Source: Zwartia hollandica | GTDB lineage: Bacteria; Pseudomonadota; Gammaproteobacteria; Burkholderiales; Burkholderiaceae_B | DNA length: 64,000 nucleotides | NCBI RefSeq assembly: GCF_019923725.1 | Contig: NZ_JAHXRI010000010.1 | Location: forward strand, 148,636 to 212,635 | Direction: 5' to 3' | Shown here: in pieces, positions 23,209-44,782 of the stretch | Numbering within the stretch: position 1 is the first letter of the stretch | Layout: each line of letters begins with the position of its first letter | Notes under the pieces: model-generated | Databases searched by the model: none | What the model saw: only the letters and a program-made list of their open reading frames with translations | Told to the model about the DNA's origin: nothing | Program-made: the position numbers and the translations under genes

Positions 23209-23531
23209 TTATCCAGAGCTCCCATCACAGCGCCTGTAAAACCATACACAATACGATCACCGGCCAATGCCACCAGCTCAACCTCGCGCTCCTGTCCAGG
23301 TTCAAAACGCACTGCAGTACCAGCTGGAATATTCAAACGGAACCCACGGGCAGCCTGCCGATCAAAACGCAAGGCCGCATTGGTCTCTGCGAAGTGGTAG
23401 TGCGAGCCAATCTGCACGGGACGATCGCCAGTATTCGCAACCGTAACTTTGCAAGTCGCACGCCCCACATTCATTTCGATATCCCCCTCTGCGACAAGCA
23501 TCTGACCTGGGATCATTGGTGTTGTAGTCAT
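23205..23531 (-). CDS. ureB: Urease subunit beta
   Basis: The small structural beta subunit (108 residues) of the three-subunit type of bacterial urease. It starts with [24 protein letters not shown]-type sequence and contains [19 protein letters not shown] and the [15 protein letters not shown] segment that packs on the alpha subunit. It is 9 bases after ureA and overlaps ureC by 4 bases (ATGA-type coupling). Helicobacter fuses this subunit with gamma; here they are separate. Confidence 0.97.
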
Positions 23532-23540
23532 CGCCTTTCC

Positions 23541-23846
23541 TTATTGAATCGGTTGATGAACGGTGACAAGCTTGGTCCCATCGGGGAACGTCGCCTCCAC
23601 TTGTATGTCTGGAATCATCTCTGCAACCCCTTCCATGACGTCGGCACGCGTCAAAATGTGTCGACCGACGCTCATGAGTTCGGCGACGGTTTGCCCATCG
23701 CGCGCGCCCTCCATGATCGCAGCAGTGATCAAGGCGATTGCTTCAGGGACGTTTAGCTTCAGCCCCCGCGCACGCCGCCGCTCCGCGAGAAGTGCAGCAG
23801 TGAAAATCAGCAATTTGTCTTTTTCTCTTGGAGTTAAATCCATCAT
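23541..23846 (-). CDS. ureA: Urease subunit gamma
   Basis: The smallest structural subunit of urease (100 or 101 residues). [23 protein letters not shown] at the N-terminus and [18 protein letters not shown] near residue 62 identify it. It ends in HQPIQ as usual. Two adjacent ATG codons (23846 and 23843) are possible starts; most relatives begin with a single M before DLTPREKDK. It follows ureD by 21 bases. Confidence 0.96.
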
Positions 23847-23867
23847 GACCTCTACACAACAATACGA

Positions 23868-24737
23868 TTAAGTTGCCCACAAACGAGGAGCCACAGCCGG
23901 GCGCTCCAGAACAATCGGGCGCAGACTCATCCACGCCGCTTGTAATAACAATTTGATGTCCATTGCAGGAGCAAGAATACGACCTACAACGACTCTCTGA
24001 TGCAATACGGTCCAGGCAACACCCTTTGCCTCTAGCCGCAACGTTTGCAAAGCCGCTTCGCCCCACTCCTTGTCGCCCGGCAAGACCGCCCAAATCGTCG
24101 CAAAAGCAAAGTGGCCACGCAGTCCGATAGGCGATGCAAACAAAGGATCACTCCCCTGCAGCACCATACGATCGAGCCAAACTAAATCACCGTCAACATC
24201 CAAGCGTAACGTCTGCTTAAAGTTCCCCTCCGCAAAAGTCTCGCCTGATGCCTGGCGTCCAAAAATCAAGTGATCCCAACCAATCGTGGCACCTTGTGCG
24301 GAAACACGAATGGCGATGTCGGAGACAACACGCGCACGATTAAAGACAATTGTTTCTTGAGGTAGCCATTCAAAATAACCATCTAGCGTCATGTCGATCT
24401 GTTGCGAGGCCACGGTGTCGGACTCGGCGCCATACCATTTTGCAGCAGAAGGTGTTGTGACCAAGCCGTGACTGCCGACCTCACAGGCGACCTGTACCTC
24501 GAGCTGATCTCCTGCCGCGATTCCGCCTGGCGGATGCACAATGATCGCGTGACAGGGTGACGCCCCCTCGGGATACAACGCCTTTTGAATCCGAAGCGGA
24601 CCGAAATGCTTATGGTGCAGGCGTGTTTTACCCAGCTCGGACGTTGGAGCAATACTAAAGTCCAGCTCAAGTCGAGCTTGCCAGGAAGACCAAAACGCCG
24701 CTTCGCTCATCGACTCGGACGGTTTTGACCAACGCAT
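23868..24737 (-). CDS. ureD: Urease accessory protein UreD
   Basis: A scaffold of the urease activation complex that binds apo-urease and UreF. It is recognised by WQARLELDFSIAP, the KTRLHHKHFGPLRIQKALYPEG core, HPPGGIAAGDQL and TTPSAAKWYG. The frame is open to 24926, but that upstream part holds a sigma-54 promoter (24767-24784) and two NtrC-like sites, so it cannot be coding in the main transcript. The predicted start point near 24757 leaves ATG at 24737 (chosen) or ATG at 24710 as starts; neither has a strong ribosome binding site. It is first in the ureDABCEFG operon and divergent from the chromate transporter. Confidence 0.9.
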   Translation of the reverse strand: MRWSKPSESMSEAAFWSSWQARLELDFSIAPTSELGKTRLHHKHFGPLRIQKALYPEGASPCHAIIVHPPGGIAAGDQLEVQVACEVGSHGLVTTPSAAKWYGAESDTVASQQIDMTLDGYFEWLPQETIVFNRARVVSDIAIRVSAQGATIGWDHLIFGRQASGETFAEGNFKQTLRLDVDGDLVWLDRMVLQGSDPLFASPIGLRGHFAFATIWAVLPGDKEWGEAALQTLRLEAKGVAWTVLHQRVVVGRILAPAMDIKLLLQAAWMSLRPIVLERPAVAPRLWAT

Positions 24738-24766
24738 TTGTTGGTAAAGGTGCATGTAGAAACCAT

Positions 24767-24784
24767 AAGCAAGTATGATGCCCG
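24767..24784 (-). promoter_or_regulatory. Sigma-54 promoter of the urease operon
   Basis: On the minus strand GGGCATCATACTTGCTT has the invariant GG (24782-24781), exactly ten bases, then GC (24770-24769); GGCAT and TTGCT match the -24/-12 consensus TGGCAYR-N4-TTGCW, with the first T and the R position off. The predicted start is near 24757, just before ureD. Two NtrC-like sites lie upstream at a normal enhancer distance. Confidence 0.72.
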
Positions 24785-24854
24785 AAAGCATACCCAAACG
24801 GGCAAACGGACGGCTACTTTCAATCGCCGCGAAATCTTTCATTACATACAAATT

Positions 24855-24871
24855 TGCACCAAATTGGCCCA
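24855..24871. promoter_or_regulatory. NtrC-like binding site 1 (urease operon)
   Basis: TGCACCA-AAT-TGGCCCA matches the 17 bp NtrC palindrome TGCACCA-N3-TGGTGCA at 12 of 14 fixed positions, with one half perfect. Its centre is about 106 bases upstream of the predicted urease start point, close to the spacing of NtrC site 1 at E. coli glnA. Confidence 0.7.
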
Positions 24872-24876
24872 TGAAT

Positions 24877-24893
24877 AGATCCAAAATGGTGCA
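24877..24893. promoter_or_regulatory. NtrC-like binding site 2 (urease operon)
   Basis: AGATCCA-AAA-TGGTGCA has one perfect half and 11 of 14 fixed positions overall. Its centre is 22 bp (two helical turns) from site 1, on the same face of the helix, at about -128 from the predicted start. It lies 22 bases before the chromate transporter start, so a bound dimer could also affect that gene. Confidence 0.6.
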
Positions 24894-24914
24894 TTGATTT
24901 TGGACCGTACGCCA

Positions 24915-26273
24915 ATGTCTAATCACAATGTAAAAAACTCACCCGATACACCACAACCAACATCAGTCGGCATCAGTCGGCGCGAAGCCTTCTGGTTTTG
25001 GTTCAAGCTCGGGTTTATAAGTTTTGGCGGCCCTGCAGGGCAAATTGCCATGATGCACACAGAGCTGGTGGACAAGCGACGTTGGATCTCCGATAAGCGC
25101 TTCCTGCATGCTCTGAATTTTTGTATGGTCCTGCCGGGACCAGAAGCTCAACAACTGGCGACCTATCTTGGGTGGCTCATGCATCGCACCTGGGGGGGGA
25201 TCGTCGCCGGAACGCTCTTTATCCTTCCCTCGTTACTCTTGATTGTTTCATTATCTTGGGTCTATATGGCCTATGGTGACACCAAGATCGTCGCTGGCCT
25301 TTTTTATGGAATCAAACCCGCGGTCACCGTTTTAGTCATCCAGGCGAGCTACCGCATTGGCTCCCGCACGCTACACAACCCCTGGCTCTGGACGATTGCG
25401 GTTCTATCTTTCTTAGCGCTGTTTGTCTTTGACTTACCTTTTCCGTTGATCATTGCGGTTGCAGCACTGATCGGATGGTTAGGCGGCAAACGATCGCCCG
25501 AGAGCTTCTCTGTCGGCCACGCAAGCACAGCACATAAACAATCAACGACGACTGCAATCATCGACGATCACAGTCCACAACCTCCACACACACTGTTTAG
25601 CTATCGCAGGCTGTACATGATTCTGAGCGCTGCCGTTGTGCTCTGGTGCGTACCCATGCTTGCAATGATTATGCTTTGGGGCTGGCACCACACCATCACA
25701 CAGATGGCTTGGTTCTTTACCAAGGCCGCGTTGCTGACGTTCGGAGGCGCCTATGCAGTGTTGCCCTACGTCTATCAGGCAGCTGTTGAGACCTTTGCTT
25801 GGCTTACTCCTACCCAAATGATTGATGGTTTGGCGCTCGGCGAAACCACCCCTGGCCCGCTCATCATGATCGTAGCCTTCGTAGGTTTTGTAGGCGCCTT
25901 TGCACAGAGCGCTCTAGGACCAGATCACGCGGTGTTGTCTGGCATCGTCGCCGCTTGCGTTGTGACCTGGTTTACGTTTCTGCCTTCATTTATTTTTATC
26001 TTGGCTGGCGGCCCTTTTATCGAGAGCACGCACGGAAAACTAGCGTTCACTGCTGCGCTCACGGGTGTCACCGCTGCCGTGGTGGGTGTGATTGCAAACC
26101 TTGCTCTGTTTTTTGCCATGCACGTAGGGTGGCCCGACGGCTGGGTAGGTGGCTTAGATCTCAAGGTCGCTGCTATCGCCGCAGTCGCAGCGGTAGCGAT
26201 CTTTATTTATAAGAGAGGCGCCATCGAAACAATTATCGGCGCAGCGCTTTTAGGTTACTTCGTTGCCAACTAG
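24915..26273 (+). CDS. chrA: Chromate transporter, long-chain CHR family
   Basis: An inner-membrane protein of 452 residues with two homologous CHR domains. The N-terminal one has FWFWFKLGFISFGGPAGQIAMM and VLPGPEAQQLATYLGWL, the C-terminal one has FFTKAALLTFGGAYAVLPYV and GLALGETTPGPLIMIVAFVGF, each with about six membrane segments. Family members efflux chromate or affect sulfate/oxyanion transport. TTG at 24894 extends the frame by 7 codons, but ATG at 24915 with GGA ten bases upstream is preferred. It diverges from ureD across the NtrC/sigma-54 region and converges on the ABC transporter operon with 6 bases between stops. Confidence 0.9.
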   Translation: MSNHNVKNSPDTPQPTSVGISRREAFWFWFKLGFISFGGPAGQIAMMHTELVDKRRWISDKRFLHALNFCMVLPGPEAQQLATYLGWLMHRTWGGIVAGTLFILPSLLLIVSLSWVYMAYGDTKIVAGLFYGIKPAVTVLVIQASYRIGSRTLHNPWLWTIAVLSFLALFVFDLPFPLIIAVAALIGWLGGKRSPESFSVGHASTAHKQSTTTAIIDDHSPQPPHTLFSYRRLYMILSAAVVLWCVPMLAMIMLWGWHHTITQMAWFFTKAALLTFGGAYAVLPYVYQAAVETFAWLTPTQMIDGLALGETTPGPLIMIVAFVGFVGAFAQSALGPDHAVLSGIVAACVVTWFTFLPSFIFILAGGPFIESTHGKLAFTAALTGVTAAVVGVIANLALFFAMHVGWPDGWVGGLDLKVAAIAAVAAVAIFIYKRGAIETIIGAALLGYFVAN

Positions 26274-26279
26274 ACGCGT

Positions 26280-27293
26280 TTAATTCTCACGCAAGTGGCA
26301 AGCCACCATACGCCCCGAACCCAGCATCGTCTGCTTAGGCTCCTCAGTCTTGCAGCGAGCAAAGGCATCAGGACAGCGCGTGTGGAAGTGACAACCGCTC
26401 GGACGCTTTACCGGACTCGGCACATCACCCTGCAAAACAATCCGATTGGTCTTTTTTTGTGGATCAGGAACCGGCACCGCAGACAGCAAGGCAACCGTAT
26501 AAGGATGCTGAGGATTGGAAAACAGTTCCTTCCGATCCGCGAGTTCGACGATTTTTCCAAGATACATCACGGCAACGCGGTGTGTCATGTGCTCAACGAT
26601 CGCCAAGTCATGGCTAATAAAGAGCAGGGCTAAGCCAAGCTCTTTCTGAAGGTCTTGCAACAAGTTAACGATCTGCGCCTTCACCGAAACATCCAGTGCA
26701 GAGACCGCTTCATCGCAAATAATCAGATCGGGCTCTGCCGCCAAGGCACGCGCAATACAGATTCGTTGACGCTGCCCACCTGAAAACTCATGGGGCCAAC
26801 GTGCGCCCGCATCTTTTGATAAACGCACTTTTTCCAACAGCTTGGCAACGCGCTCTTCGATCTCTTGTTCGGACTGACACAAGCCAAAATTACGGATTGG
26901 CTCCGCAATAATGTCATGCACGCGCATGCGAGGATTGAGACTTGAAAACGGATCTTGGAAAATAACCTGAATGCGTTTGCGCAATGGGCGCAACGCACCG
27001 GCGCTTAAGGAATCAATCCGAACGCCATCGAGCAGCACTTCGCCTGAGGTCAAGTCAAACAAGCGCAAAATAGAACGGCCAACCGTTGATTTCCCGCAGC
27101 CAGACTCGCCCACCAAAGCGAGGGTCTCGCCCTTGCGAATGGAAAATGACACCCCATCCACAGCATGCACGTTGCCCGTGACTTTGCCAAACAGCCCAGT
27201 CTTAATGGGGAAGAACTTTTGAAGCTTGCGAACTTCTAACAACGGCGCAGTAGAGGACATGGACATACTAGTAACCTGATTCGTATTAGTCAT
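26280..27293 (-). CDS. dppF: Dipeptide-type ABC transporter ATP-binding protein (DppF class)
   Basis: The second ATPase of a peptide importer. Walker [10 protein letters not shown], Walker B PDLIICDEAVSALDVS and signature SGGQRQR are intact, and the C-terminal oligopeptide domain has the cysteine pattern GCHFHTRCPDA that in DppD/DppF/OppD binds an iron-sulfur cluster. ATG at 27293 overlaps the dppD stop by 8 bases; ATG at 27269 has AGG eight bases upstream and is an alternative. It is last in the operon dppABCDF-like 31824-26280. The nearest known parallel is the E. coli Ddp/Dpp transporter; the actual solute is unknown. Confidence 0.9.
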   Translation of the reverse strand: MTNTNQVTSMSMSSTAPLLEVRKLQKFFPIKTGLFGKVTGNVHAVDGVSFSIRKGETLALVGESGCGKSTVGRSILRLFDLTSGEVLLDGVRIDSLSAGALRPLRKRIQVIFQDPFSSLNPRMRVHDIIAEPIRNFGLCQSEQEIEERVAKLLEKVRLSKDAGARWPHEFSGGQRQRICIARALAAEPDLIICDEAVSALDVSVKAQIVNLLQDLQKELGLALLFISHDLAIVEHMTHRVAVMYLGKIVELADRKELFSNPQHPYTVALLSAVPVPDPQKKTNRIVLQGDVPSPVKRPSGCHFHTRCPDAFARCKTEEPKQTMLGSGRMVACHLREN

Positions 27294-28278
27294 TGGCGAA
27301 GGCAATTTCACCTGCGAAGTGACAGGCGACCTGATGGCCGTTGTCGCGCATTTGCATAGCGGGGGCGATTTCGTGACAAGGTTCTTTCGCCAGTGGGCAC
27401 CGTGACGCAAAAACACAACCCTTGATCTTTTGCTTCAAACTCGGAACCAATCCCGGGATTTCTTTCAAGCGTGTCGAGTGCCCATCAAGTGACGCACCTA
27501 GTTTGGGCACAGCGCCAAGCAGTCCCTGAGTATAAGGATGCAGCGGCTTAGCAAAGAGCTCTCCCACTGGGGCCTCTTCAACCTTCCGACCGGCATACAT
27601 CACCATCACACGTTCGGCTACCTCTGCCACGACACCCAAATCGTGCGTGATCAGTACGATCGCAGCTCCAATTTTATTCTTCAGATCAGCCATCAGATCT
27701 AGAATCTGAGCTTGAATCGTAACGTCCAAGGCTGTCGTGGGTTCATCGGCAATCAATAGCTTAGGGTTGCAAGCTAGCGCCATTGCAATCATGACTCGCT
27801 GACGCATGCCGCCAGAAAGCTGATGCGGATATTCATTCAACCGACGCTGCCCTTCGGCGATACCAACCAAATCCATGAGTTCGGATGCACGAGCCATAGC
27901 CTGTTCTTGCGTGATGTCCTGATGCAAGCGCAGCGTTTCGCACAACTGACGCTTGATTGGAAGCACAGGATTCAAGCTGGTCATCGGCTCTTGGAAAATC
28001 ATTGAAATCGCATCACCACGAATGGCGCGCATTTCTTTTTCCGACATTTTGAGCAGATCTTGACCCAAAAAACGAATGGAGCCAGCAATTTTGCCGGGAG
28101 GCTCGGGGATCAAACGCAGGATCGACATCGCCGTCACAGACTTGCCGCAACCGGACTCACCAACGATTGCCAGTGTCTCGCCCTCGTTGACAACAAAGCT
28201 CACGCCATCAACCGCTCGATTCACACCATCGGGGGTACGAAAGTGTGTCTGAAGATTTTCAACTTCTAATAAGGCCAA
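27286..28278 (-). CDS. dppD: Dipeptide-type ABC transporter ATP-binding protein (DppD class)
   Basis: The first ATPase of the importer, 330 residues. Walker [21 protein letters not shown] after the Q-loop, signature LSGGMRQRV and Walker [15 protein letters not shown] are present. The C-terminal [17 protein letters not shown] cysteine cluster is typical of DppD/OppD. The frame is open upstream into dppC, but TTG at 28278 has GGAG seven bases upstream and begins the family sequence [12 protein letters not shown], so it is chosen. It starts 13 bases after dppC and overlaps dppF by 8 bases. Confidence 0.9.
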
Positions 28279-28291
28279 GAGATATCTCCAA

Positions 28292-29182
28292 TCAACTTGT
28301 TTTCGACTTGCGGGGATCCAACACATCACGGAAGCCATCACCCATTAGGTTGACAGCCAAAACAGTGAGAGAGAGAAAAACCGCAGGGAAAAAGATGATG
28401 TAAGGCTTAATCTGGAACAAGGTACGGCCATCGGCCATGATGTTGCCCCACGAGGGGATAATCGGTGGCACACCGGCGCCGATAAACGACAAAATAGATT
28501 CCGTGATCATGGCCGACGCACAGATGTAGGTGGCTTGTACAGTCAGCGGTGCCAAGGTATTGGGCAGAATATGCCGCCAAATCAACATCGGCATACGACA
28601 ACCGCACGAAATCGCTGCGTCCACATAGGCTTGCTCACGTAGGGACAGCACCACACCACGTACTAGCCGAGAAACCCGTGGGATTTCAGCGATGGTGATC
28701 GCGATGATCACGTTCTCTACACTCGCTCGAGTCAACGCCATCAGAGCAATCGCCAGCAAGATCGGAGGTATGGACATTAAGCCATCCATGATTCGCATGA
28801 TTATTGAGTCTGCGCGACGGAAGGTTCCAGACACCAAACCAATACACAGACCGATGACTGAAGCGAGTAAGGCAACAGAAAAACCAATAATTAAGGAAAC
28901 ACGGGCTCCGTAAAGGACGCGTGAGTAAATATCACGGCCAAACGCATCGGTTCCGAACCAATATTCAGCGGAAGGCTCCAGATTTCTTTTGCGTGGAGCG
29001 AGTTCTGTCGGATCAACCGTTCCAAGCAAAGGGGCTGCGATCGCAATAAACAACATGATGAGCAGCAAGCCAGCACCAAAGGTGATGGTTGGATTATTCA
29101 ACAAAAATCCAGTCCAACCTTTGCGTTGACGGCGAGGTTTTAAGAGATCCGGTAAAGCGGGGGCAGCAGCAAAACTAGTCAT
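28292..29182 (-). CDS. dppC: Dipeptide-type ABC transporter permease (DppC class)
   Basis: An inner-membrane permease of 296 residues with an N-terminal membrane segment (TITFGAGLLLIMLFIAIAAPLL), the FGTDAFGRDIYSRVLYGARVSL periplasmic loop typical of DppC/OppC, and about five further segments with the EAA loop AISCGCRMPMLIWRHILPN. It ends in NLMGDGFRDVLDPRK, a DppC hallmark. The start overlaps dppB by one base. Confidence 0.92.
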   Translation of the reverse strand: MTSFAAAPALPDLLKPRRQRKGWTGFLLNNPTITFGAGLLLIMLFIAIAAPLLGTVDPTELAPRKRNLEPSAEYWFGTDAFGRDIYSRVLYGARVSLIIGFSVALLASVIGLCIGLVSGTFRRADSIIMRIMDGLMSIPPILLAIALMALTRASVENVIIAITIAEIPRVSRLVRGVVLSLREQAYVDAAISCGCRMPMLIWRHILPNTLAPLTVQATYICASAMITESILSFIGAGVPPIIPSWGNIMADGRTLFQIKPYIIFFPAVFLSLTVLAVNLMGDGFRDVLDPRKSKTS

Positions 29183-30123
29183 TAATAACGTATCCTCGGA
29201 TCGACGATCGTATAGATCACATCAACACAAAGGTTGACCAACACATACACAAAACTGAAAACAACAACCAGTCCCTGAATCAGCGGATAGTCCCGGCGCA
29301 CGATTGCATCAATCGTTAAACGCCCCAAGCCAGGAATCGCAAAGACACTCTCTGTCACGACCGCACCGCCGATAAGCAGAGCGATACCGATACCGATGAC
29401 GGTCACGACTGGCACGGCTGCGTTTTTGAGCGCATGCAAAAACAAAATGCCCATCTGTCCCATCCCCTTTGCTTTCGCAGTGCGGATATAGTCTTGGGAC
29501 AAGACCTCAAGCATTGTTGCGCGGGTAATGCGCGCAATAAGGGCGATATACACGAAGCCTAGGGCGATGGCTGGCAGCACAAGATGTTCGAACCAAACGC
29601 CAAAACCTTTCTTATAAGAAACGTATCCTTGCACCGGAAACCAATCTAATTCCAATGACAAGAAGAAGCTAAGCAGATAACCCACAACGAACACTGGAAC
29701 TGAAAAACCGATCACTGAGATCGCCATAATTCCGCGATCAATCCAAGTTCCGGCCTTCCAAGCCGCCAAGACGCCTATTGGCACGGCAATGGTGACGGCA
29801 AGCGTCAATGTGAGCAACATTAAGGAAAGCGTCGGCTCTACCCGTTGTCCGATCAACTCAATCACCGGCATACCGGTGAACATTGAAGTACCCAAGTCAC
29901 CTTGTAGTAAGTTGAAGAACCATTCAGAAAATCTGACGAGAAACGGTCTATCCAACCCTAAGCTGGCACGAATTTTCTCAACGTCGGCTGGGCTTGCCTG
30001 ATCGCCAGCAATCACAGCAGCTGGATCGCCTGGTGCGATATAAAGCAAACTAAATACAAAAAAAGCCACGACCAGCATGACTGGAATGGTCGCAAGTACC
30101 CTTCCAAATATATAGCTAAACAT
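29182..30123 (-). CDS. dppB: Dipeptide-type ABC transporter permease (DppB class)
   Basis: An inner-membrane permease of 313 residues with the DppB/OppB start MFSYIFGRVLATIPVML and the PGDPAAVIAGDQASP loop. About six membrane segments follow, with the EAA loop RTAKAKGMGQMGILFLHALKNA and the end VDVIYTIVDPRIRY. It lies about 100 bases downstream of the solute-binding gene, separated by a strong stem-loop at 30175-30203, which would favour more of the binding protein than of the membrane parts. Confidence 0.93.
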   Translation of the reverse strand: MFSYIFGRVLATIPVMLVVAFFVFSLLYIAPGDPAAVIAGDQASPADVEKIRASLGLDRPFLVRFSEWFFNLLQGDLGTSMFTGMPVIELIGQRVEPTLSLMLLTLTLAVTIAVPIGVLAAWKAGTWIDRGIMAISVIGFSVPVFVVGYLLSFFLSLELDWFPVQGYVSYKKGFGVWFEHLVLPAIALGFVYIALIARITRATMLEVLSQDYIRTAKAKGMGQMGILFLHALKNAAVPVVTVIGIGIALLIGGAVVTESVFAIPGLGRLTIDAIVRRDYPLIQGLVVVFSFVYVLVNLCVDVIYTIVDPRIRY

Positions 30124-30222: not shown

Positions 30223-31824
30223 TTAGGCTTTCTTCACACCAGTGAACCATGGCAATGGTCCCGAGGTGATGCCGCTGAGGTTTTTACGCCAAGCTTGGTA
30301 GGAATAGAAGAAGCCTGTTGGGATATAAACAACCTCTTCCATCGCAGCCTTGTTGATATCCTCAAAGGACTTTTTCTCAGCTTCGAGTGTTGAGGCATCA
30401 AACCAAGCGTCCACGCCCTTTTCAACAGCAGGGACATTAGGCCAACCAAACCATGCCTTATCGCCGTTTGCACGCACGCCGACGTTACCTGCCAGCGTTG
30501 CTGCGTCAGCACCAGCGTGCCAGGTGTGGAACATGCCCCAACCGCCTTTGCCAGGCTCGTTCTTGGATGCACGACGTTGACCCACAGTGCCCCAATCGGT
30601 TGCAACGAAGTCGACGTTCATACCCAAACGCTTGAGCACGTCCGCTGTGATCTCGCCCATGCCTTTGGTGATCGCTTGGTCCTGTGCAACCAAGCATGTC
30701 ACTGGTTGACCCTTGTAGCCCGACTCAGCCAACAACTTCTTGGCAGCTTCCATCTGCGGACCCTTCTTGAGCACCTCACCACCAGCCTCTGTGTACAAGG
30801 GGGTGTCGGGTGTAAAGAAGCTAGCTGACTTCTTCCAAAGCTTCGTATCCGATCCAACGATCGCGCGCATGTAGTCCTCTTGGCTAATTGCCATTTGAAC
30901 AGCACGGCGTACCTTCACGTTGTCAAACGGAGGGTGAATGTGGTTGAGACGGAACGAGCCGATGTTACCAAGCGGATCAGCGATATCAACCTCAATATTG
31001 CGGTTACGACGCAGGAGAGGGATCAAGTCAGGCAGTGGAGTTTCCCACCAATCGATCTCACCGCTCTGTAGCGCAGCTGACGCTGTCGCGGGATCAGGCA
31101 TGATGATCCATTCGATGCGATCGAAGTGAATGATCTTGCCGCCAGACATCCAGTTGGCAGGCTCACTGCGCGGCTTGTAATCAGCAAAACGCTCGAACAC
31201 GGCCAGCGCACCGGGTTTCCATTCGTTGCGCGCAAAGCGCATTGGGCCGGAGCCGATGTATTCCTCGATCTGTTTGAAGGGATCAGTCTTTGCGATACGC
31301 TCCGGCATAATGAAGCAAATTGGTGTGCCCACTTTGCCTAGCGCAAACAACATTTTTGGATAGGGTTTAGAAAGAACCCACTTGAAAGTCGTATCGTTAA
31401 CAGCAACGAGTTCCTTCTGAATCGCTTTGAGCATCAGGCCCATCGGATCGCGAGCGGACCAGCGCGTGATACTGGCCACACAGTCAACAGCGCGCACAGG
31501 CGAACCATCATGAAACTTCAGCCCTGGGCGAAGCTTGAAGGTCCAGGTCAGGCCATCGGCCGACATTTCTTCGCTTTCAACCATCTGCCGCTTTGGCTGC
31601 AGTTTGTTATCAATGCCGTATAACGTATCCCAAACCAACTGGGATGCATTACGCACAACGTACTGCGTGCCCCAAATTGGGTCAAAGTTAGCCAAGTTCG
31701 CCTGAGGCACGAACTTCAATACTTTGGTGGAACCTTGCGAAAACGCTGGGGCGCCAACAACACCTGTCGCTGCCACACCTAAGCCAGCCGCGCCTTTCAG
31801 TAAATCACGTCGATTGAGTTTCAT
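30223..31824 (-). CDS. Peptide/solute-binding protein of dipeptide-type ABC transporter
   Basis: A periplasmic binding protein of family 5 (SBP_bac_5), 533 residues. The signal peptide NRRDLLKGAAGLGVAATG with twin arginines suggests Tat export. The LTWTFKLRPGLKFHDGSPVRAVDCVAS segment near residue 95 is the family signature. ATG at 31824 has GGAG six bases upstream; the open frame further up covers the sigma-54 promoter and is not coding. It is the first gene of the five-gene importer operon. Beside a D-aminoacylase and D-carbamoylase, the solute is inferred to be a D-amino-acid-containing or N-blocked amino acid or dipeptide, in parallel to E. coli DdpA. Confidence 0.88.
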   Translation of the reverse strand: MKLNRRDLLKGAAGLGVAATGVVGAPAFSQGSTKVLKFVPQANLANFDPIWGTQYVVRNASQLVWDTLYGIDNKLQPKRQMVESEEMSADGLTWTFKLRPGLKFHDGSPVRAVDCVASITRWSARDPMGLMLKAIQKELVAVNDTTFKWVLSKPYPKMLFALGKVGTPICFIMPERIAKTDPFKQIEEYIGSGPMRFARNEWKPGALAVFERFADYKPRSEPANWMSGGKIIHFDRIEWIIMPDPATASAALQSGEIDWWETPLPDLIPLLRRNRNIEVDIADPLGNIGSFRLNHIHPPFDNVKVRRAVQMAISQEDYMRAIVGSDTKLWKKSASFFTPDTPLYTEAGGEVLKKGPQMEAAKKLLAESGYKGQPVTCLVAQDQAITKGMGEITADVLKRLGMNVDFVATDWGTVGQRRASKNEPGKGGWGMFHTWHAGADAATLAGNVGVRANGDKAWFGWPNVPAVEKGVDAWFDASTLEAEKKSFEDINKAAMEEVVYIPTGFFYSYQAWRKNLSGITSGPLPWFTGVKKA

Positions 31825-31863: not shown

Positions 31864-31879
31864 AGCAATAACCGTGCCA
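31864..31879 (-). promoter_or_regulatory. Sigma-54 promoter of the peptide transporter operon
   Basis: Minus strand TGGCACGGTTATTGCT is an exact match to the -24/-12 consensus TGGCACG-N4-TTGCW (TGGCACG at 31879-31873, TTGC at 31868-31865). The predicted start is near 31853, 29 bases before the binding-protein ATG, leaving room for its GGAG ribosome binding site. Confidence 0.92.
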
Positions 31880-31985
31880 CAAAAACTGATGGACCCACTC
31901 GAGGTTAACTTACACTGGGGCATACCCAGCTGCTGTGGCATTTGCCAACATTGCAATAAGAAAAACCGTGAAGAGACTGCGAGTT

Positions 31986-32002
31986 TGTACCATAATGGTG
32001 CA
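31986..32002. promoter_or_regulatory. NtrC-binding palindrome between divergent transporter and D-aminoacylase
   Basis: TGTACCATAATGGTGCA matches TGCACCA-N3-TGGTGCA at 13 of 14 fixed positions and differs from the strong E. coli glnA site only slightly. Its centre is about 141 bases upstream of the transporter start point, a normal enhancer distance. It ends 25 bases before the D-aminoacylase ATG, where a bound protein would overlap that gene's promoter. Confidence 0.85.
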
Positions 32003-32027
32003 GTCTAAAACATACAAGTAATCCCTC

Positions 32028-33461
32028 ATGAACTGTGATCTCCTCCTGAAGAACGGCGTAGTCATTGATGGTTCGGGTAAACCCCGATATCGTGCTGATG
32101 TGGCTATACAAGATGGCAAGATTGTCGCAATCGGATTGAATCTTGAAGTTCAAGCCAGCACAACGGTTGACGTTAATGGTGCCTCAATCGCCCCAGGCTT
32201 CATTGATGTGCATACACACGATGATCGCCTCGTGTTGGCCGATCCGTCGATGGAGCCAAAGATAAGCCAGGGCGCCACGACGGTGGTGACAGGCAACTGC
32301 GGTATTAGCCTCGCTCCACTCGGCCGAACAAATGCCATCCCGCCAATCAACTTGGTTGCCAATGACAACTCAAATCAACGTTTCAACACCTTCAAAGAGT
32401 ATTTCGAAGCGCTAGAAAAGACACCCTCATCAATGAACGTCGCATCGCTGGCGGGACACACCACGATGCGCGCTGTCACGATGCAAGACTTAGACCGCCC
32501 AGCAAATGAAGCAGAAATTGCGCAAATGCAAAAGCTGGTGCAAGAGGCGCTTGACGCTGGCGTGGTCGGCGTATCGACTGGCTTGTATTACGCCCCCGCT
32601 CAGGCAGCGACCGCAAGTGAAGTTCAGGCAGTCTTTGAACCCCTACGCGGAACCAATGCCGTGATTGCCTCTCACATTCGCAATGAGGCCGAACAGGTGC
32701 TCGAAGCGATGACCGAGGCCATGTCGATTGCCAATGCACTAGGCGTGCGTCAGGTTATCTCGCATCACAAGGTCAATGGACGTGCCAACCACGGCCGCTC
32801 AACCGAAACGCTCGCGCTCGTTGATGAAGCACGCAGCCGCATGGATGTTTGCATGGACTGCTACCCCTATGTCGCTTCGTCGACCATCTTGCGCCAGGAC
32901 AACGTGGAGCAAGCCTCCCGCACACTGATCGCTTGGTCAACACCGAAGCCAGAAACCGCTGGACGCTATGTAGACGAGTTGCTTAAGGAGCAAAATCTCG
33001 ACTTGACCGAATTCTTGGCTTCACTGCAACCCGCAGGTGCGATTTACTTCTCGATGGACGAGGCTGATGTAGAGCGCATCATGGCGCACCCAGAAACCAT
33101 GATTGGCTCGGACGGTCTGCCGCACGACACCTTTCCTCACCCGCGACTTTGGGGTGCCTTCCCGAGGGTGCTGGGGCACTATTCGCGGGATAGAAAAATA
33201 TTTCCGCTTGAGACTGCTATATACAAAATGACGGGCATGCCCGCAGCTAAGTTTGGTTTGAAAAACCGTGGGCTGATTGCTCAGGGTTATGCGGCGGACC
33301 TCGTCGTGTTTGATCCCGAGCACGTGCGCGACTGCGCGACCTTTGCGGATCCCAAACGACCCGCAGCGGGCATCCAACGCGTATACGTTAACGGTGTCAC
33401 AAGCTGGCGCAATGGTGCGGCGACCGGCGCGCGCGCCGGTCAGGTCATCCGGCGTAGCTAA
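32028..33461 (+). CDS. N-acyl-D-amino-acid deacylase (D-aminoacylase family amidohydrolase)
   Basis: Hydrolyses N-acyl-D-amino acids to the D-amino acid and a fatty acid; a zinc amidohydrolase. The N-terminus MNCDLLLKNGVVIDGSG, the metal motif APGFIDVHTHDDRLVL (HxH near residue 63) and VVTGNCGISLAPL with the family cysteine are all present. MIGSDGLPHDTFPHPRLWG carries the catalytic Asp, and RGLIAQGYAADLVVFDPE closes the barrel. 477 residues is typical. The ATG at 32028 has no good ribosome binding site. It is divergent from the transporter operon and shares the NtrC site. It may alternatively act on dipeptides with D-residues. Confidence 0.88.
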   Translation: MNCDLLLKNGVVIDGSGKPRYRADVAIQDGKIVAIGLNLEVQASTTVDVNGASIAPGFIDVHTHDDRLVLADPSMEPKISQGATTVVTGNCGISLAPLGRTNAIPPINLVANDNSNQRFNTFKEYFEALEKTPSSMNVASLAGHTTMRAVTMQDLDRPANEAEIAQMQKLVQEALDAGVVGVSTGLYYAPAQAATASEVQAVFEPLRGTNAVIASHIRNEAEQVLEAMTEAMSIANALGVRQVISHHKVNGRANHGRSTETLALVDEARSRMDVCMDCYPYVASSTILRQDNVEQASRTLIAWSTPKPETAGRYVDELLKEQNLDLTEFLASLQPAGAIYFSMDEADVERIMAHPETMIGSDGLPHDTFPHPRLWGAFPRVLGHYSRDRKIFPLETAIYKMTGMPAAKFGLKNRGLIAQGYAADLVVFDPEHVRDCATFADPKRPAAGIQRVYVNGVTSWRNGAATGARAGQVIRRS

Positions 33462-33472: not shown

Positions 33473-34654
33473 TTACTTCAGCAGCACTTCCTGGGTCATG
33501 CGATCGCGTAAGCGGTCCATGAAACCCAGGCATTGTTCCAGTTGGCTAATTTCGATATATTCGTTGGGCTTGTGCGCCACCGCGATATCGCCAGGTCCAA
33601 CCACCACACAGGGGATACCTGCCTTATGCAGCCAGCCCGCGTCTGTCGCGAACGATACACGTCCCAACAGGTTGTTTTTAACGAGGGAAGTACCCAAGTA
33701 AGTGATGGGTGCGTCTTCGGGCGTTGCTAACGGCGCAGAATTCGAAATTGTCTCGAACGAAATATCTGCGTCGGCGGAAAACTTTCGCATCTCAACCTTA
33801 AGCATTTCAGCGTGCTCTTGAATCTGTTGAATCAAGGCATCCGAATTACCCTGCGGTAGGGTGCGGCAATCAAAAATAAACTCACAGTCTTTTGCAACAA
33901 TGTTGGGCGCAGTACCGCCATGAATGACGCCCGTTTGCATCGTGCCATGTGCGATCTTGAACATGGGGTCAAACGGGCCGTCTTTTTGAATCTGCAACGC
34001 CATCGTGCGAATTTTTTCAATTAAGCGCGCTGCATATTCGATTGCACTGACCGCCTCTGGCGCCATCGAAGAGTGAGCCTCTAGACCACGGACTCGGCAA
34101 CGCGTGACTCGCATCCCCTTATGCCCTGTCATCACCTGCATCCCGGTGGGCTCGCCCACAAAACAGCCAGCAGGATGAATTCCCGCCTCTGCCAAATCAC
34201 GAATGAGTGTTTGAACGCCAATACAACCGACCTCTTCGTCGTAGGTTAAACCAATATTCAAAGGCTGCTTTAAATCGCTGTTGATGAACGCGGGCAGCAT
34301 AGCCAGCGAAGCTGCGATGTAGCCCTTCATGTCGACTGCGCCGCGGCCATAAATCTTCCCGTCTGCGATGTGCGCTTTAAACGGATCGGTATTCCAAGCC
34401 TGACCATCGACAGGCACGACGTCTGTATGCCCACACAACACGATACCGCGCGCTTTTGGATCACCCACCGTTGCGAAGAGGTTCGCTTTGCGTTTCTCTG
34501 CGTCATAAGACAAGCGCACTGGTATGCCCAAGGCCTGCAAATGGTCGCGAACATACTCAATCAACCCGAGATTAGATTCCCGACTTGTGGTGTCAAAGCC
34601 GACAAGTGTTTGAAGTAGCTCGATGGTTTTCTGAACGGTCGGGGTATAGGTCAT
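33473..34654 (-). CDS. argE: M20-family deacylase, acetylornithine deacetylase-like
   Basis: A zinc-dependent amide hydrolase of 393 residues. Metal ligands are seen in VLCGHTDVVPVDG, YGRGAVDMKGYIA, YDEEVGCIGVQ and VGEPTGMQV, with the last His in AVAHKPNEYIE. The length and motifs match ArgE/DapE-type enzymes, and annotation pipelines would say acetylornithine deacetylase. Its context among D-aminoacylase, carbamoylases and a diaminopropionate lyase argues for removal of acyl groups from imported amino acids rather than arginine synthesis; betaproteobacteria usually recycle acetyl with ArgJ. E. coli places an M20 enzyme (YgeY) beside its diaminopropionate lyase in the same way. Convergent with the D-aminoacylase, divergent from the lyase. 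Confidence 0.82.
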   Translation of the reverse strand: MTYTPTVQKTIELLQTLVGFDTTSRESNLGLIEYVRDHLQALGIPVRLSYDAEKRKANLFATVGDPKARGIVLCGHTDVVPVDGQAWNTDPFKAHIADGKIYGRGAVDMKGYIAASLAMLPAFINSDLKQPLNIGLTYDEEVGCIGVQTLIRDLAEAGIHPAGCFVGEPTGMQVMTGHKGMRVTRCRVRGLEAHSSMAPEAVSAIEYAARLIEKIRTMALQIQKDGPFDPMFKIAHGTMQTGVIHGGTAPNIVAKDCEFIFDCRTLPQGNSDALIQQIQEHAEMLKVEMRKFSADADISFETISNSAPLATPEDAPITYLGTSLVKNNLLGRVSFATDAGWLHKAGIPCVVVGPGDIAVAHKPNEYIEISQLEQCLGFMDRLRDRMTQEVLLK

Positions 34655-34806
34655 AAATCTGCTTTATTGAAGGTAAAGTATTTTTATACCACTGCCCGTC
34701 CTTGGATCACCACCCCTGTGGGTGCCGATTAGTCAAAAACAAAGCAGATCGTCTATTCTTTCGTATCGTTTTGATTTTAATTGCCTGTCTTTATATAGGG
34801 TTAGCC

Positions 34807-36036
34807 ATGAATACCCAGATTTCGAAGGGAAATGGACTTGCGTTGTATCCCAACCCAATCGCCTGTAGACCACAAGACCAGTATGGTCAAGACAAGGAAG
34901 CGATTCTGCACAGGGCTGGCTTTGATTCAGCAGAGAAGGAAATATCAGGATGGCCGGGCTATCACGCAACAACTCTGCATACCCTCCCATTTCTCGCCCA
35001 GACACTCGGGATCGCAACGCTTCACTACAAAGATGAGAGCACGCGCTTCGGACTCAAAAGTTTCAAAGCACTGGGCGGCGCCTATGCCGTCTTTCGCCTG
35101 ATACAAAAAGCAGTCGCCGCTCAACACAACGGCCACTTGCCCACACCAAAAGAAATTCTATCGGGCAAGTATGCTGACATCGTCTCTAAGATGACAGTCA
35201 CCTGTGCAACAGACGGCAATCATGGGCGCTCCGTTGCTTGGGGCGCGCAGTTGTTTGGGTGCCGTTGCGTAATTTATATTCACGCCACCGTCAGCGAGGG
35301 GCGACGAGCAGCTATTGCGTTCTACGGCGCAGAGGTCATTCGCGTAAAAGGCAATTACGATGACTCTGTACACCACGCCGCCGCGCAAGCCGCTCAACAC
35401 GGCTGGACCGTTGTTTCTGACACGACCTATGAGGGCTATCGCGACATTCCCATCGACGTGATGCATGGCTATGGCGTCATGTCACGCGAAGTGATCCGGC
35501 AACTGGACCACAACCCGCCCACCCATGTGTTGGTCCAAGCTGGAGTAGGAGCACTCGCTGCATCGGTGTGTGCTGCTTTCTGGCAAGAATGGGGCGCAAC
35601 GCGTCCGACCTTTGTCATTATTGAGCCTGAGCGTGCAGATTGCTTTTTTCAAAGTGGCTTGGTGGGGAAACCGGTTGCCGTACTTGGTGATCTGGACACT
35701 GTGATGGCGGGCCTCGCCTGCGGAGAGGTCTCGCCCGTCGCCTGGGATATCCTGAAGCACGGCATTAACCACTACGCTACGTTATCGGATGCGCATGCAC
35801 TTGAGGCCATGCGCGTCTTCGCCCAGCCGCGAGGTAATGATCCGAAAATCGTGTCGGGCGAAACTGGCAGTACCGGACTCGGGCTGCTGCTCGCAGCGCA
35901 AGGCAATGCACAAATCTGGAGCGCGCTTGGACTAAACGCTCAGTCGCGCGTCTTACTCATTGGTAGCGAAGGTGATACCGATCCGACAATCTATAAAGAA
36001 GTCGTCGGCCGCTCCGCTGAGGAGGTGCTTGCATGA
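34807..36036 (+). CDS. dpaL: Diaminopropionate ammonia-lyase
   Basis: A PLP enzyme of fold type II that splits 2,3-diaminopropionate into pyruvate and two ammonia; known members accept both D and L forms, and D-serine weakly. The PLP lysine is in DESTRFGLKSFKALGGAYAV (around residue 77), the glycine-rich phosphate site is in ATDGNHGRSVAWGA, and SGETGSTGLG is conserved near the end. The frame is open to 34702, but ATG at 34807 with AGGG six bases upstream is chosen (409 residues). The stop overlaps the next gene (ATGA), starting the four-gene plus-strand run to 39131. Confidence 0.88.
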   Translation: MNTQISKGNGLALYPNPIACRPQDQYGQDKEAILHRAGFDSAEKEISGWPGYHATTLHTLPFLAQTLGIATLHYKDESTRFGLKSFKALGGAYAVFRLIQKAVAAQHNGHLPTPKEILSGKYADIVSKMTVTCATDGNHGRSVAWGAQLFGCRCVIYIHATVSEGRRAAIAFYGAEVIRVKGNYDDSVHHAAAQAAQHGWTVVSDTTYEGYRDIPIDVMHGYGVMSREVIRQLDHNPPTHVLVQAGVGALAASVCAAFWQEWGATRPTFVIIEPERADCFFQSGLVGKPVAVLGDLDTVMAGLACGEVSPVAWDILKHGINHYATLSDAHALEAMRVFAQPRGNDPKIVSGETGSTGLGLLLAAQGNAQIWSALGLNAQSRVLLIGSEGDTDPTIYKEVVGRSAEEVLA

Positions 36037-37268
36037 ACGCAGCACAACTGGCTATTAATGGTCCCCGGCTCATGCGACAACTCGAGCAGCTAGCCGAGAT
36101 CGGACGCACTGAAACAAATGCCTGTTGCCGACTCGCGCTTACGGACGATGACAAGCTAGGTCGCGATCTCGTTGTCAGTTGGATGAAAGAGCTAGGCATG
36201 ACGGTCACGATCGACCCCATTGGTAATATTTTTGGCACGCGTGCTGGCTCGCAACCAGACTTAGCGCCTGTCATGACAGGCTCTCACATCGACACCGTAC
36301 GCACGGGTGGCGCGTATGACGGCAACTATGGCGTCCTCGCGGGCCTAGAGGTCGTCGCCACGCTTAACGAGGCAAAGCAACTAACGCAACGCTCACTTGT
36401 CGTTGGCGTTTTTACAAACGAAGAAGGTGCTCGCTTCGCTCCCGACATGCTGGGATCACTTGTGTATGTCGGGGGTATGCCGCTGGATGAAGCACTAGAC
36501 CTCAAGGCGATTGACGGTCCGCGTTTAGGTGATGAGTTAGCGCGGATTGGCTACGACGGCAAAGCGGATCTAGGCGCACATAAACCTCACGCCTTTATTG
36601 AACTGCATATTGAACAAGGACCTATCCTAGACATAGAAGGTGTAAAAATTGGTGCCGTCGAAAACCTGCAAGGAATCTCGTGGCAGGAGCTGACGATCGT
36701 GGGCCAGTCTAACCACGCTGGCACAACGCCAATGTATTTACGTCACGACGCAGGTTATGTGGCGAGCGCGATTGCCACGTTCGTTCGTGATCTGACACGC
36801 AAGATGGGGGGACACCAAGTCGGCACGATCGGAAAAATAGACCTCATCCCTAACCTGATCAATGTGATTGCCGCGCGCGCCACGATAACTGTTGATCTGC
36901 GTAATACGGACGAAGGTTTGCTGAAACAAGCCGAACACGCTCTCGCTACCTATCTTAAGGAGCTCGAGCAATCCGAGGGCGTCACCATCACTGCGCGGCG
37001 TTTAGCTCGCTTTGAGCCCGTCTCTTTCGATACGGCACTAGCCGATCGCATCGCACACCACGCACAAGCGCTAGGTCTTAGCCAACAGCGCATGACCTCA
37101 GGCGCTGGGCACGATGCACAAATGCTTGCTCGCATCTGCCCAACCTCGATGATCTTTGTGCCGAGCGTGGGCGGCATTAGCCATAACCCGGCAGAGTACA
37201 CCGCTCAGGAAGATCTCATCGCCGGTGCCAATGTATTGTTGGCATCGTTGACCGAACTCGCAAACTAG
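36033..37268 (+). CDS. M20C-family Zn-dependent amidohydrolase (N-carbamoyl-L-amino-acid hydrolase/allantoate-type)
   Basis: Cleaves an N-carbamoyl or ureido group and releases ammonia and CO2. The metal site residues are in MTGSHIDTVRTGGAYDGNYGVL, FTNEEGARF and AFIELHIEQGPIL, with SGAGHDAQMLARI and SHNPAEYTAQEDL near the end; these are the signature of the L-carbamoylase, beta-ureidopropionase and allantoate amidohydrolase group. 411 residues is normal. The exact substrate cannot be read from sequence. It is coupled to dpaL by an ATGA overlap and followed 11 bases later by the D-carbamoylase. Confidence 0.85.
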   Translation: MNAAQLAINGPRLMRQLEQLAEIGRTETNACCRLALTDDDKLGRDLVVSWMKELGMTVTIDPIGNIFGTRAGSQPDLAPVMTGSHIDTVRTGGAYDGNYGVLAGLEVVATLNEAKQLTQRSLVVGVFTNEEGARFAPDMLGSLVYVGGMPLDEALDLKAIDGPRLGDELARIGYDGKADLGAHKPHAFIELHIEQGPILDIEGVKIGAVENLQGISWQELTIVGQSNHAGTTPMYLRHDAGYVASAIATFVRDLTRKMGGHQVGTIGKIDLIPNLINVIAARATITVDLRNTDEGLLKQAEHALATYLKELEQSEGVTITARRLARFEPVSFDTALADRIAHHAQALGLSQQRMTSGAGHDAQMLARICPTSMIFVPSVGGISHNPAEYTAQEDLIAGANVLLASLTELAN

Positions 37269-37279: not shown

Positions 37280-38215
37280 ATGACCCGAATCGTTACCGTC
37301 GGCGCTGCACAACTAGGTCCCATCCAACGCGCACATTCACGCAAAGAGGTCGTCGCGCGCTTACTGTCCTTACTTGAACAAGGCGCTCGCCACGGCTGTG
37401 ATCTCGTTGTCTTTCCAGAACTCGCACTCACCACTTTCTTTCCGAGATGGTTTTTTGAGTCACAAGCTGAAATCGATACCTTCTACGAAGCGCAAATGCC
37501 CGGACCAGAGACACAAGTTCTTTTCGATACCGCGCGCAAGTTGAAGGTTGGATTTTATTTAGGCTACGCAGAACTCACACAGGAAGATGGCCGCACCCGT
37601 CGCTTTAATACCTCGATCCTGGTTGACCAAACCGGAGTTATTGTCGGCAAATATCGCAAAGTTCACCTGCCAGGTCATGCCGAGCACGAGCCTTGGCGCC
37701 AGTTCCAGCATCTGGAGAAGCGCTATTTCGAAACGGGTAATTTAGGCTTCCCGGTTTTCCGCGCCTTTGGGGGAATTATCGGCATGGCAGTCTGCAACGA
37801 TCGACGCTGGCCTGAGACCTACCGTGTCATGGGCTTGCAAGGCGTCGAGATGATCTTGATTGGTTACAACACTCCCGTCCATAACCCCCCTGCCCCTGAG
37901 CATGACAACTTGTCACACTTTCATAATGAACTTGTCATGCAGTCTGGCGCCTATCAAAACGGCACATGGGTCATCGGCGTTGGCAAAGGCGGACGCGAAG
38001 AAGGCGTCGACCAAATTGGCAACTCAATTATTGTCGCTCCGTCTGGAGAAATCGTTGGCGCCTGCAGCACGCTAGGGGACGAACTCGCCATTGCGCGTTG
38101 CGATCTTGACTTGACGCTTTCTTACAAAAACTCAGTATTTAACTTCGCTAAACATCGTGAGCCACATGCCTACGGGATGATTGTCGAACGTAAAGGCGCG
38201 ATCATTAGTGTTTAG
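37280..38215 (+). CDS. N-carbamoyl-D-amino-acid hydrolase
   Basis: A nitrilase-superfamily enzyme that hydrolyses N-carbamoyl-D-amino acids to D-amino acid, ammonia and CO2. The Glu-Lys-Cys triad is in VVFPELALTTFFPRW (Glu near 46), VGKYRKVHLPGH (Lys near 127) and MAVCNDRRWPE (Cys near 172). HLEKRYFETGNLGFPV and GYNTPVHNPPAPEHD closely resemble the characterised Agrobacterium D-carbamoylase, and the 311-residue length agrees. It sits between the M20C enzyme and an overlapping metallo-beta-lactamase gene. No hydantoinase gene is in the window, so substrates would be imported or made elsewhere. Confidence 0.9.
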   Translation: MTRIVTVGAAQLGPIQRAHSRKEVVARLLSLLEQGARHGCDLVVFPELALTTFFPRWFFESQAEIDTFYEAQMPGPETQVLFDTARKLKVGFYLGYAELTQEDGRTRRFNTSILVDQTGVIVGKYRKVHLPGHAEHEPWRQFQHLEKRYFETGNLGFPVFRAFGGIIGMAVCNDRRWPETYRVMGLQGVEMILIGYNTPVHNPPAPEHDNLSHFHNELVMQSGAYQNGTWVIGVGKGGREEGVDQIGNSIIVAPSGEIVGACSTLGDELAIARCDLDLTLSYKNSVFNFAKHREPHAYGMIVERKGAIISV

Positions 38216-39155: not shown

Positions 39156-40433
39156 TCAGCTGTAGTCTCGGGCATCTTCAATGAGTTTTCCATCGTCCGG
39201 CAGTGCACCGGCTGCGACAAACTGAATTTCGGCACGCAAGCGCGTCACCTCGCGCACAACCTCTGCCACCTGCAGCGCAAGGTCCGCTACAGATGATCCT
39301 GGGACAAGCTCACAACGCACCTCCATCTTGTCCTCGCCGATTCGCCCCGTCAGAACGAGGCGGGCTTTTTTGATCTCCGGAAAGCGACTCGTCATTTGAG
39401 CGACCTGCCCTGGATGCACAAACATCCCTCGTACCTTTGTCGTTTGGTCGGCTCGTCCCAACCATCCTTTGATTCTTAGATTAGTGCGACCACACGCAGC
39501 CGGCATGTTCAACGAGTCAGGGTGAAAAGCGGATAGATCACCCGTTGCAAAACGAATCATCGGATACTCTTTAGCGAAATGCGTCACCACTACCTCTCCG
39601 GTCTCACCGAAAGGCATCGGCGTTGAACCACCGGGCTCGACAATTTCAACAATAACCTCTTCATCCACGATCAGACCCTCGGCCGGGACTGAGCCCTCAT
39701 ACGCGATCACACCGAGCTCGGCCGTCGCATACGCCTGGCTCACCTTGACCTGATGTTGAGCAAACCACCCGCGCAGCGAGGGCGTCAGAGCCTCGCCTGA
39801 GACTAACGCCTTTGTCACGATGGCATTTGGTGAGCCTTGCTCTAGGCATTTCTCAATCAATATTTTAAGAAACGAGGGCGTTCCGACATAACCGTTTGGC
39901 CTAATCTGTAACATCGCCTGAACTTGCTGTTCAGTTTGTCCAACACCACCCGGAAACACCGTACATCCAATTTCGTGAAGACCGCCCTCTAAGATCCACG
40001 CGCCTGGAGTACCGTGATAAGAGAAACCGTTATGCACGATATCGCCTGATTCAAAGCCTGCAGCACGTAAGGCTCGGGCTGAACGAAAATAGTCTATTCG
40101 CAGGCCTTGGGGCTCATAGATCGGTCCCGGTGATTGGAACACTCGGCGAAGCTGGTCAACAGAGACGGCTAGCAGTCCACCAAGCGGCGGACTAGCCGTT
40201 TGAATTTTAAGTAGATCTGCTTTTCGAAGAACAGGAAGCGCCGAAAGCGCCTGCAGACTGTCCACGTGGTTGACTTGAATAGCCGCGAGTGACGCAGCGT
40301 AATACGGTGCATTTTTTTTGGCATGCGTCAATGCACTTTGTAAAGCGAGTACCAAATCGGTATCGCGTTGCTTCGGTGTGCGCAGCTCTAATGGCGTGAG
40401 GGTCGTATTCAAGCAAGTCAACCTTACATTCAA
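39156..40433 (-). CDS. Phenylacetate-CoA ligase-like AMP-forming enzyme
   Basis: An adenylate-forming acyl-CoA ligase of the PaaK group, 425 residues. Typical segments are ALPVLRKADLL, the HNGFSYHGTPGAWILE loop, YVGTPSFLKILIEK, QAYATAELGVIAYE (in place of YGxTE), TGDLSAF and GWLGRADQTTKVRGMFVHPGQV near the C-terminal domain. It activates an aryl or small carboxylic acid to its CoA ester with ATP. It is the last gene of the liv-type operon, 15 bases after livF, so it is expected to act on the imported compound. No phenylacetate ring-epoxidation genes are near, so the substrate may differ from phenylacetate. Confidence 0.82.
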   Translation of the reverse strand: MNVRLTCLNTTLTPLELRTPKQRDTDLVLALQSALTHAKKNAPYYAASLAAIQVNHVDSLQALSALPVLRKADLLKIQTASPPLGGLLAVSVDQLRRVFQSPGPIYEPQGLRIDYFRSARALRAAGFESGDIVHNGFSYHGTPGAWILEGGLHEIGCTVFPGGVGQTEQQVQAMLQIRPNGYVGTPSFLKILIEKCLEQGSPNAIVTKALVSGEALTPSLRGWFAQHQVKVSQAYATAELGVIAYEGSVPAEGLIVDEEVIVEIVEPGGSTPMPFGETGEVVVTHFAKEYPMIRFATGDLSAFHPDSLNMPAACGRTNLRIKGWLGRADQTTKVRGMFVHPGQVAQMTSRFPEIKKARLVLTGRIGEDKMEVRCELVPGSSVADLALQVAEVVREVTRLRAEIQFVAAGALPDDGKLIEDARDYS

Positions 40434-40448
40434 ATATAGCGAGATAAT

Positions 40449-41258: not shown

Positions 41259-41292
41259 AGACAGCGTCTCTTCATGGTGTGTGGAATCTATA

Positions 41293-41319: not shown

Positions 41320-41326
41320 ATCCGCC

Positions 41327-43828: not shown

Positions 43829-43838
43829 GCTAGTCCTC

Positions 43839-44768: not shown

Positions 44769-44782
44769 CTATGTCTCCGTGT

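Follow-up and report, generated by a model that had tools for sequence, protein, structure and literature searches.

The region separating a leftward family-5 ABC importer operon from a rightward D-aminoacylase gene in Zwartia hollandica very likely acts as a switch, in which NtrC and sigma-54 would turn on the importer under nitrogen shortage. The window, that is, the whole stretch of DNA analysed, comprises 64,000 nucleotides of a 3.2-Mb genome assembled in 25 contigs, and the sigma-54 element and the NtrC-like palindrome found in it are real and beyond chance. As judged from sequence, an importer tied to enzymes of D-amino acids and N-carbamoyl-D-amino acids would thereby be counted, within a group of Alcaligenaceae, among the targets of the general response to nitrogen starvation. 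The features involved are listed below, with the coordinates of both regulatory elements checked.

26280..30123, minus strand: importer genes for two permeases and two ATPases
30223..31824, minus strand: family-5 solute-binding protein of the importer (PF00496, 226.5 bits)
31864..31879, minus strand: sigma-54 -24/-12 element of the importer operon, TGGCACGGTTATTGCT
31968..31996, plus strand: putative sigma-70 type promoter of the D-aminoacylase gene (GTGAAG, 17 bases, CATAAT), with the same spacing in 14/14 loci
31986..32002, no strand assigned: NtrC-like palindrome, a putative enhancer, TGTACCATAATGGTGCA
32028..33461, plus strand: D-aminoacylase (521 bits to 1m7j)
33473..34654, minus strand: acetylornithine deacetylase-like gene (TIGR01892, 349.8 bits, above its cut-off)
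34702..36036, plus strand: diaminopropionate ammonia-lyase-like gene, whose true start is probably later
36033..37268, plus strand: M20 carbamoylase-like gene (TIGR01879, 407 bits)
37280..38215, plus strand: N-carbamoyl-D-amino-acid amidohydrolase (427 bits to 8i99)
in the rightward group with the amidohydrolase, plus strand: metallo-beta-lactamase-fold gene

The sigma-54 element has the sequence and the position (31879-31864, minus strand) that a preliminary description of this DNA had assigned to it. It is of the TGGCACG-N4-TTGC type, lies upstream of the importer in the right direction, and is the sole maximum-score sigma-54 site of the 64-kb window; no such site arose in six simulated 64-kb sequences. 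The ATG of the binding-protein gene, which begins at 31824, is 39 bases away from the element and not 29 as had been stated, the latter being approximately the distance from the predicted transcript start to this ATG. Genome-wide, the 15-base pattern TGGCACGN4TTGC occurred at 8 places (3 for the reversed-pattern control). Five of these matches, within ORFs (L067 twice, L068, L069 and L071), were set aside as probably due to chance, and the other three, which fall outside the predicted ORFs (one of them borders an ORF that is over-long), were all found at D-amino-acid or hydantoin loci. The promoter is directed to the importer operon only, and a sigma-54 promoter for the D-aminoacylase gene itself was rejected, since no site between the two ATGs scored above 10.5 on its strand.

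NtrC sites follow the consensus TGCACYN5RGTGCA. The palindrome, whose sequence and position at 31986-32002 had been given correctly, agrees with this consensus at 11 of the 12 specified positions, which replaces the former count of 13 of 14 fixed positions, and its centre falls at about -141, as proposed, if transcription starts near 31853. A matrix was built from 43 distinct sites (50 in all) found upstream of glnA in the genus only. The training sites, located upstream of the glnA sigma-54 element, were chosen for having at most two mismatches to the above consensus, so that the matrix owes nothing to this locus but does depend on the consensus. With this matrix, the palindrome upstream of the sigma-54 element scored 19.9, inside the range of the glnA sites themselves (9.3 to 25.2); the runner-up in the window scored 12.5, and none of 1,919,520 simulated positions reached 19.9. 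A second candidate site at 47025, with one mismatch, was rejected for scoring only 6.9, and a weak match at 35907 (11.4) lies within the ammonia-lyase ORF.

The genome encodes a single RpoN together with one strong sigma-54 activator, NtrC. Among 17 NtrC-family matches, only one was above the family cut-off; this NtrC carries the GAFTGA motif, and its gene lies in a glnA-ntrB-ntrC row. Six proteins matched PF00158, NtrC with 235 bits and the other five with 23 to 28.5 bits; these weak matches exceed Pfam's cut-off and are read as other AAA+ ATPases, since PF00158 also matches all 14 control genomes, archaea included. The presence of a single strong sigma-54 activator leads to a clean prediction, namely that the importer would be silent without ntrC. 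The pairing of a sigma-54 element with an NtrC site recurs in the same genome at glnA-ntrB-ntrC, ahead of a porin/amtB pair and at a second family-5 operon.

Conservation was assessed by searching the binding protein in 268 family genomes, of which 139 matched at 1e-100. Twenty-two loci at least 79% identical were fetched, the one studied here included, and 20 of them contain the gene start. A close divergent D-aminoacylase was found in 12 of these 20, all 12 with both elements, and a D-aminoacylase search of 32 genus genomes added two further linked loci. In this way, the alignment in relatives that the preliminary description had suggested revealed both elements in 14/14 linked loci, i.e., those with a close divergent importer/D-aminoacylase pair, which do not amount to 14 independent events; in two of them (G258 and G265), the contig holds the importer gene start only. 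A second mismatch was present in the palindrome of 8/14 linked loci, which then scored 12.6 or 14.2, values reached by 25 and 10 of 1,919,520 simulated positions, respectively. Of the 17 palindrome columns, 15 were invariant; the ungapped block, with the palindrome and the -35 hexamer set aside, had 11 invariant columns out of 35. The intergenic region has diverged elsewhere, and both elements stand out from it as conserved blocks.

All eight genus loci without a divergent D-aminoacylase in the fetched flank kept a sigma-54-like element (13.5 to 14.5 of 15.5), and none of them presented an NtrC-like site within ~330 bases upstream (best 5.6). In three of five such loci inspected, an NtrC-like site of 14.5 was found 851-886 bases away, inside the next predicted ORF. 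Three loci of the same genus with a divergent D-aminoacylase and a binding protein only 45-47% identical (L041-L043) had neither element, and upstream of their D-aminoacylase the place of the NtrC-like site is taken by TGGTAGTCTACCA or a near copy of it. Among the best 80 of at least 565 loci, the relatives bearing a name in which this locus was found are Zwartia panacis, Z. vadi and a Sheuella metagenome assembly. The locus was also present in L075, a contig whose title gives it as a metagenome assembly of Bordetella parapertussis, with a binding protein of 98% identity; this species name seems mistaken.

The wider sample consisted of the best 80 of at least 565 loci, from which 6 loci of the genus were dropped, as were 2 lacking a usable gene start, leaving 72, many of them from Bradyrhizobium and hence not independent. 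In 65 of these 72 non-genus loci, the 200 bases preceding the binding-protein gene contained a sigma-54 element scoring at least 13.5 (shuffles, mean 0.64 and maximum 4; opposite strand, 0), a count which, like the 14/14 above, does not represent independent events because many relatives are close kin and many are metagenome assemblies. The element was missing from the other seven, and a family relative with a 65% identical binding protein (L039) had none. In the non-genus loci among these best 80, the 450 bases upstream contained no NtrC-like site with at most one mismatch, and N-carbamoyl-D-amino-acid hydrolase homologues were found near the gene in 13 of the 74 non-genus loci. The importer's sigma-54 promoter is older, as its presence in 65 of the 72 loci from beyond the genus shows. 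The case also draws attention to a family of importers, frequent among the fetched alphaproteobacterial loci (best 80 of at least 565), with a widely kept sigma-54 promoter.

The position of the palindrome follows the D-aminoacylase gene. In the 14 linked loci, the distance from the end of CATAAT to the D-aminoacylase ATG was 31 bases in 13 and 30 in one, whereas the distance from the palindrome centre to the sigma-54 element varied from 85 to 122 bases, a shift of up to 37. The ATAAT centre was invariant in 14/14, against 16 different centres among 22 glnA sites of the same genome set, and an RTGAAN hexamer preceded CATAAT by 17 bases in 14/14, with four of its six columns invariant. From the invariant CATAAT centre and its fixed spacing to both this hexamer and the D-aminoacylase ATG, a -10 element inside the NtrC site is proposed, although the -35 of this putative sigma-70 promoter is poor and a consensus scan at its threshold calls none. 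What is new here is that the distance from palindrome to D-aminoacylase is fixed, that the distance to the sigma-54 element is variable, and that a -10-like CATAAT lies in the invariant centre. The motif ATCCC, shortly before the D-aminoacylase ATG, was also invariant in 14/14 linked loci, and no obvious Shine-Dalgarno sequence was seen before this ATG (window 32014-32027).

The elements, their conservation, the single RpoN, the single strong activator and the gene families can be read from the DNA itself, and the following course of events is proposed on their basis. When nitrogen is short, phosphorylated NtrC would bind the palindrome and loop over ~115 bases to the sigma-54 RNA polymerase at 31879-31864, upon which the importer operon would fire. 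The imported substrates are most likely N-carbamoyl- or N-acyl-(D-)amino acids or substances akin to them, and ammonia would be released from these through degradation by the enzymes encoded alongside. As the palindrome covers the putative -10 of the D-aminoacylase gene, NtrC may also repress, block or modulate this divergent gene. It is tentatively suggested that one NtrC site has opposite effects, enhancing the importer's sigma-54 promoter and serving as an operator at the D-aminoacylase -10; nitrogen shortage would then raise uptake while the enzyme is held back or timed. In E. coli, the NtrC sites of glnAp1/glnAp2 act on a sigma-54 promoter and also overlap one of the sigma-70 type; the two promoters belong to a single gene there, whereas here it is the divergent gene that the overlapped promoter would drive. 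With the site in step with the divergent gene, a double role of NtrC as activator and repressor is directly testable, and this possible double use is the most worthwhile part experimentally.

The same geometry raises the question of whether the palindrome serves the importer at all. If it were an operator of the D-aminoacylase gene only, for NtrC or another regulator, the sigma-54 promoter of the importer would be served by NtrC bound elsewhere or acting from solution. The distance that is constant to the D-aminoacylase ATG and variable to the sigma-54 element would agree with this, as would the lack of the palindrome within ~330 bases in loci whose neighbour is not a D-aminoacylase, even though the sigma-54-like element stays there. 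Such an explanation is nonetheless unlikely, because the 85 to 122 bases between palindrome and sigma-54 element lie in the range of the glnA sites of the genus and the palindrome fits the glnA-derived matrix. It is more improbable still that the palindrome belongs to another regulator with an operator resembling that of NtrC; the invariant ATAAT centre, so different from the variety found at glnA, speaks for it, but can be accounted for by the embedded -10 element, and the score of 19.9, within the true glnA range and reached by no simulated position, speaks against it. Finally, many of the relatives are closely related, which leaves a very slight chance that both elements are fortuitous matches or relics; against this stand their conservation as blocks within diverged DNA and the sigma-54 element in 65/72 non-genus loci among the best 80 of at least 565.

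Returning to the NtrC/sigma-54 switch of the importer, its reach within the island is narrower than had been claimed. The two elements had been said to control a D-amino-acid island; this stands for the importer promoter, given the conservation, the separate matrix, the single RpoN and the one strong activator, but not for the island as a whole. An oppositely oriented gene sits between the D-aminoacylase and the ammonia-lyase/carbamoylase group, and the placement of this group under the elements was rejected, the best scores within 34450-34860 being 11 of 15.5 for sigma-54 (coding strand) and -3.0 for NtrC. Control of the whole island is unsupported because the carbamoylase group has neither element, and the predicted NtrC/sigma-54 control of the importer is well supported. 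In two relatives (L077 and L079), the deacetylase-like gene does not separate the D-aminoacylase from the ammonia-lyase gene, which follows it by ~26 bases on the same strand; in these, if the double role is true, the palindrome could govern a catabolic operon.

The D-amino-acid theme itself was borne out by similarity. The D-aminoacylase aligned with the solved enzyme 1m7j over residues 4-476, with HTHDD, GNCGIS, ISHHKV and GSDGLPHD all aligned, which we take to be metal-site and catalytic stretches, and the amidohydrolase matched, at full length, eleven distinct sequences named N-carbamoyl-D-amino-acid amidohydrolase with 395 to 427 bits. The gene order up to the amidohydrolase is common to Z. 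panacis (L234) and Z. vadi (L233), and a family relative with a 65% identical binding protein (G104) has D-aminoacylase (50%) and D-carbamoylase (51%) homologues nearby. The island is flanked by urease genes and by a branched-chain-type ABC transporter with an AMP-binding-like gene (21496-24926 and 39156-45568), and these two flanks hold no maximum-score sigma-54 element.

The ddp, dpp and opp peptide importers of E. coli belong to the NtrC regulon. The likeness to these systems lies in a family-5 ABC importer under nitrogen control, which is predicted here; the differences are that the present importer diverges from a D-aminoacylase, near an N-carbamoyl-D-amino-acid hydrolase gene, and that its permease C falls below the NCBIfam D,D-dipeptide permease cut-off (226.5 vs 434 bits), so that it was not assigned to the D,D-dipeptide (ddp) group. 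The basic logic of importer control by NtrC and sigma-54 is already known, and the layout is a useful new example of it.

The arrangement had been called undescribed, and indeed no account of this importer/D-aminoacylase arrangement was found among the papers listed in a search of titles and abstract openings covering few subscription journals; RpoN boxes for such genes, however, are already tabulated for Bradyrhizobium in the available portion of PMC13207237. There, a predicted RpoN box, TGGCATACCATTTGC, is given for dppE (BRADOA9_v1_42073) of Bradyrhizobium sp. DOA9, and the DOA9 locus L117, with a 67% identical binding protein, has a sigma-54 element of the same 15 letters. The likeness to dppE lies in these letters, by which alone L117 was matched to it, and no D-aminoacylase homologue or NtrC-like site was found at L117. 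The same excerpted source states that the D-aminoacylase BRADOA9_v1_42168 was affected in rpoN mutants and predicts a box, TGGCACGAAGCTTGC; this box precedes a different D-aminoacylase gene, whereas the sigma-54 promoter here points away from the D-aminoacylase. In Paraburkholderia phymatum, a predicted RpoN box precedes the hydantoin genes of the hydantoinase operon Bphy_6150-52, with others at amtB, glnA-ntrBC and urea transport (PMC5979394, in the sections at hand), and this operon is of another kind than the importer/D-aminoacylase pair. In a COG-level survey (PMC12316311, accessible parts), hydantoin racemase (COG4126) and family-5 importers (COG0747, COG0444, COG0601, COG1173 and COG4608) are listed among the targets of sigma-54, chiefly for alpha-, beta- and gammaproteobacteria; it deals, in these parts, with orthologue groups without loci or NtrC sites. 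For P. putida, the partial text of PMC3325844 reports hydantoin racemase as repressed under strict nitrogen limitation, and the table prints 8.8.

Hydantoin-related loci also occur in the genome studied here. A D-hydantoinase gene is divergent from an arylmalonate-decarboxylase-like gene (L070:2750-5158, contig C20), with sigma-54 elements at 4350-4335 on the minus strand and 4308-4323 on the plus strand that face each other, so that their transcripts would overlap; this locus showed no NtrC-like site. An opposite-strand pair of this kind was found in 6/15 relatives, and no NtrC-like site scored above 7.8 in the 11 of these 15 loci that were scanned. An NtrC-like site (13.6) was also seen just upstream of an L-lactate dehydrogenase-like gene (L066:4028-4044), with no sigma-54 element of at least 13.5 upstream of this gene. 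The second family-5 importer is the following feature.

L064:4059-10787 (own genome, contig C20): second family-5 ABC operon, divergent from an Asp/Glu/hydantoin racemase gene

With a sigma-54 element of maximum score and NtrC-like sites, this operon resembles the first in layout and, if the double role is true, would represent a second case of it. Among 28 genus loci inspected, 6 lacked the racemase and 22 had it; a sigma-54 element of at least 13.5 towards the second binding protein was found in 22/22 racemase loci. NtrC-like sites of at least 12, a score reached by 36 of 1,919,520 simulated positions, were found in 14 of these loci and only weaker ones in the other 8, and in 12 of those 14 the site starts 87 to 97 bases ahead of the start of the racemase.
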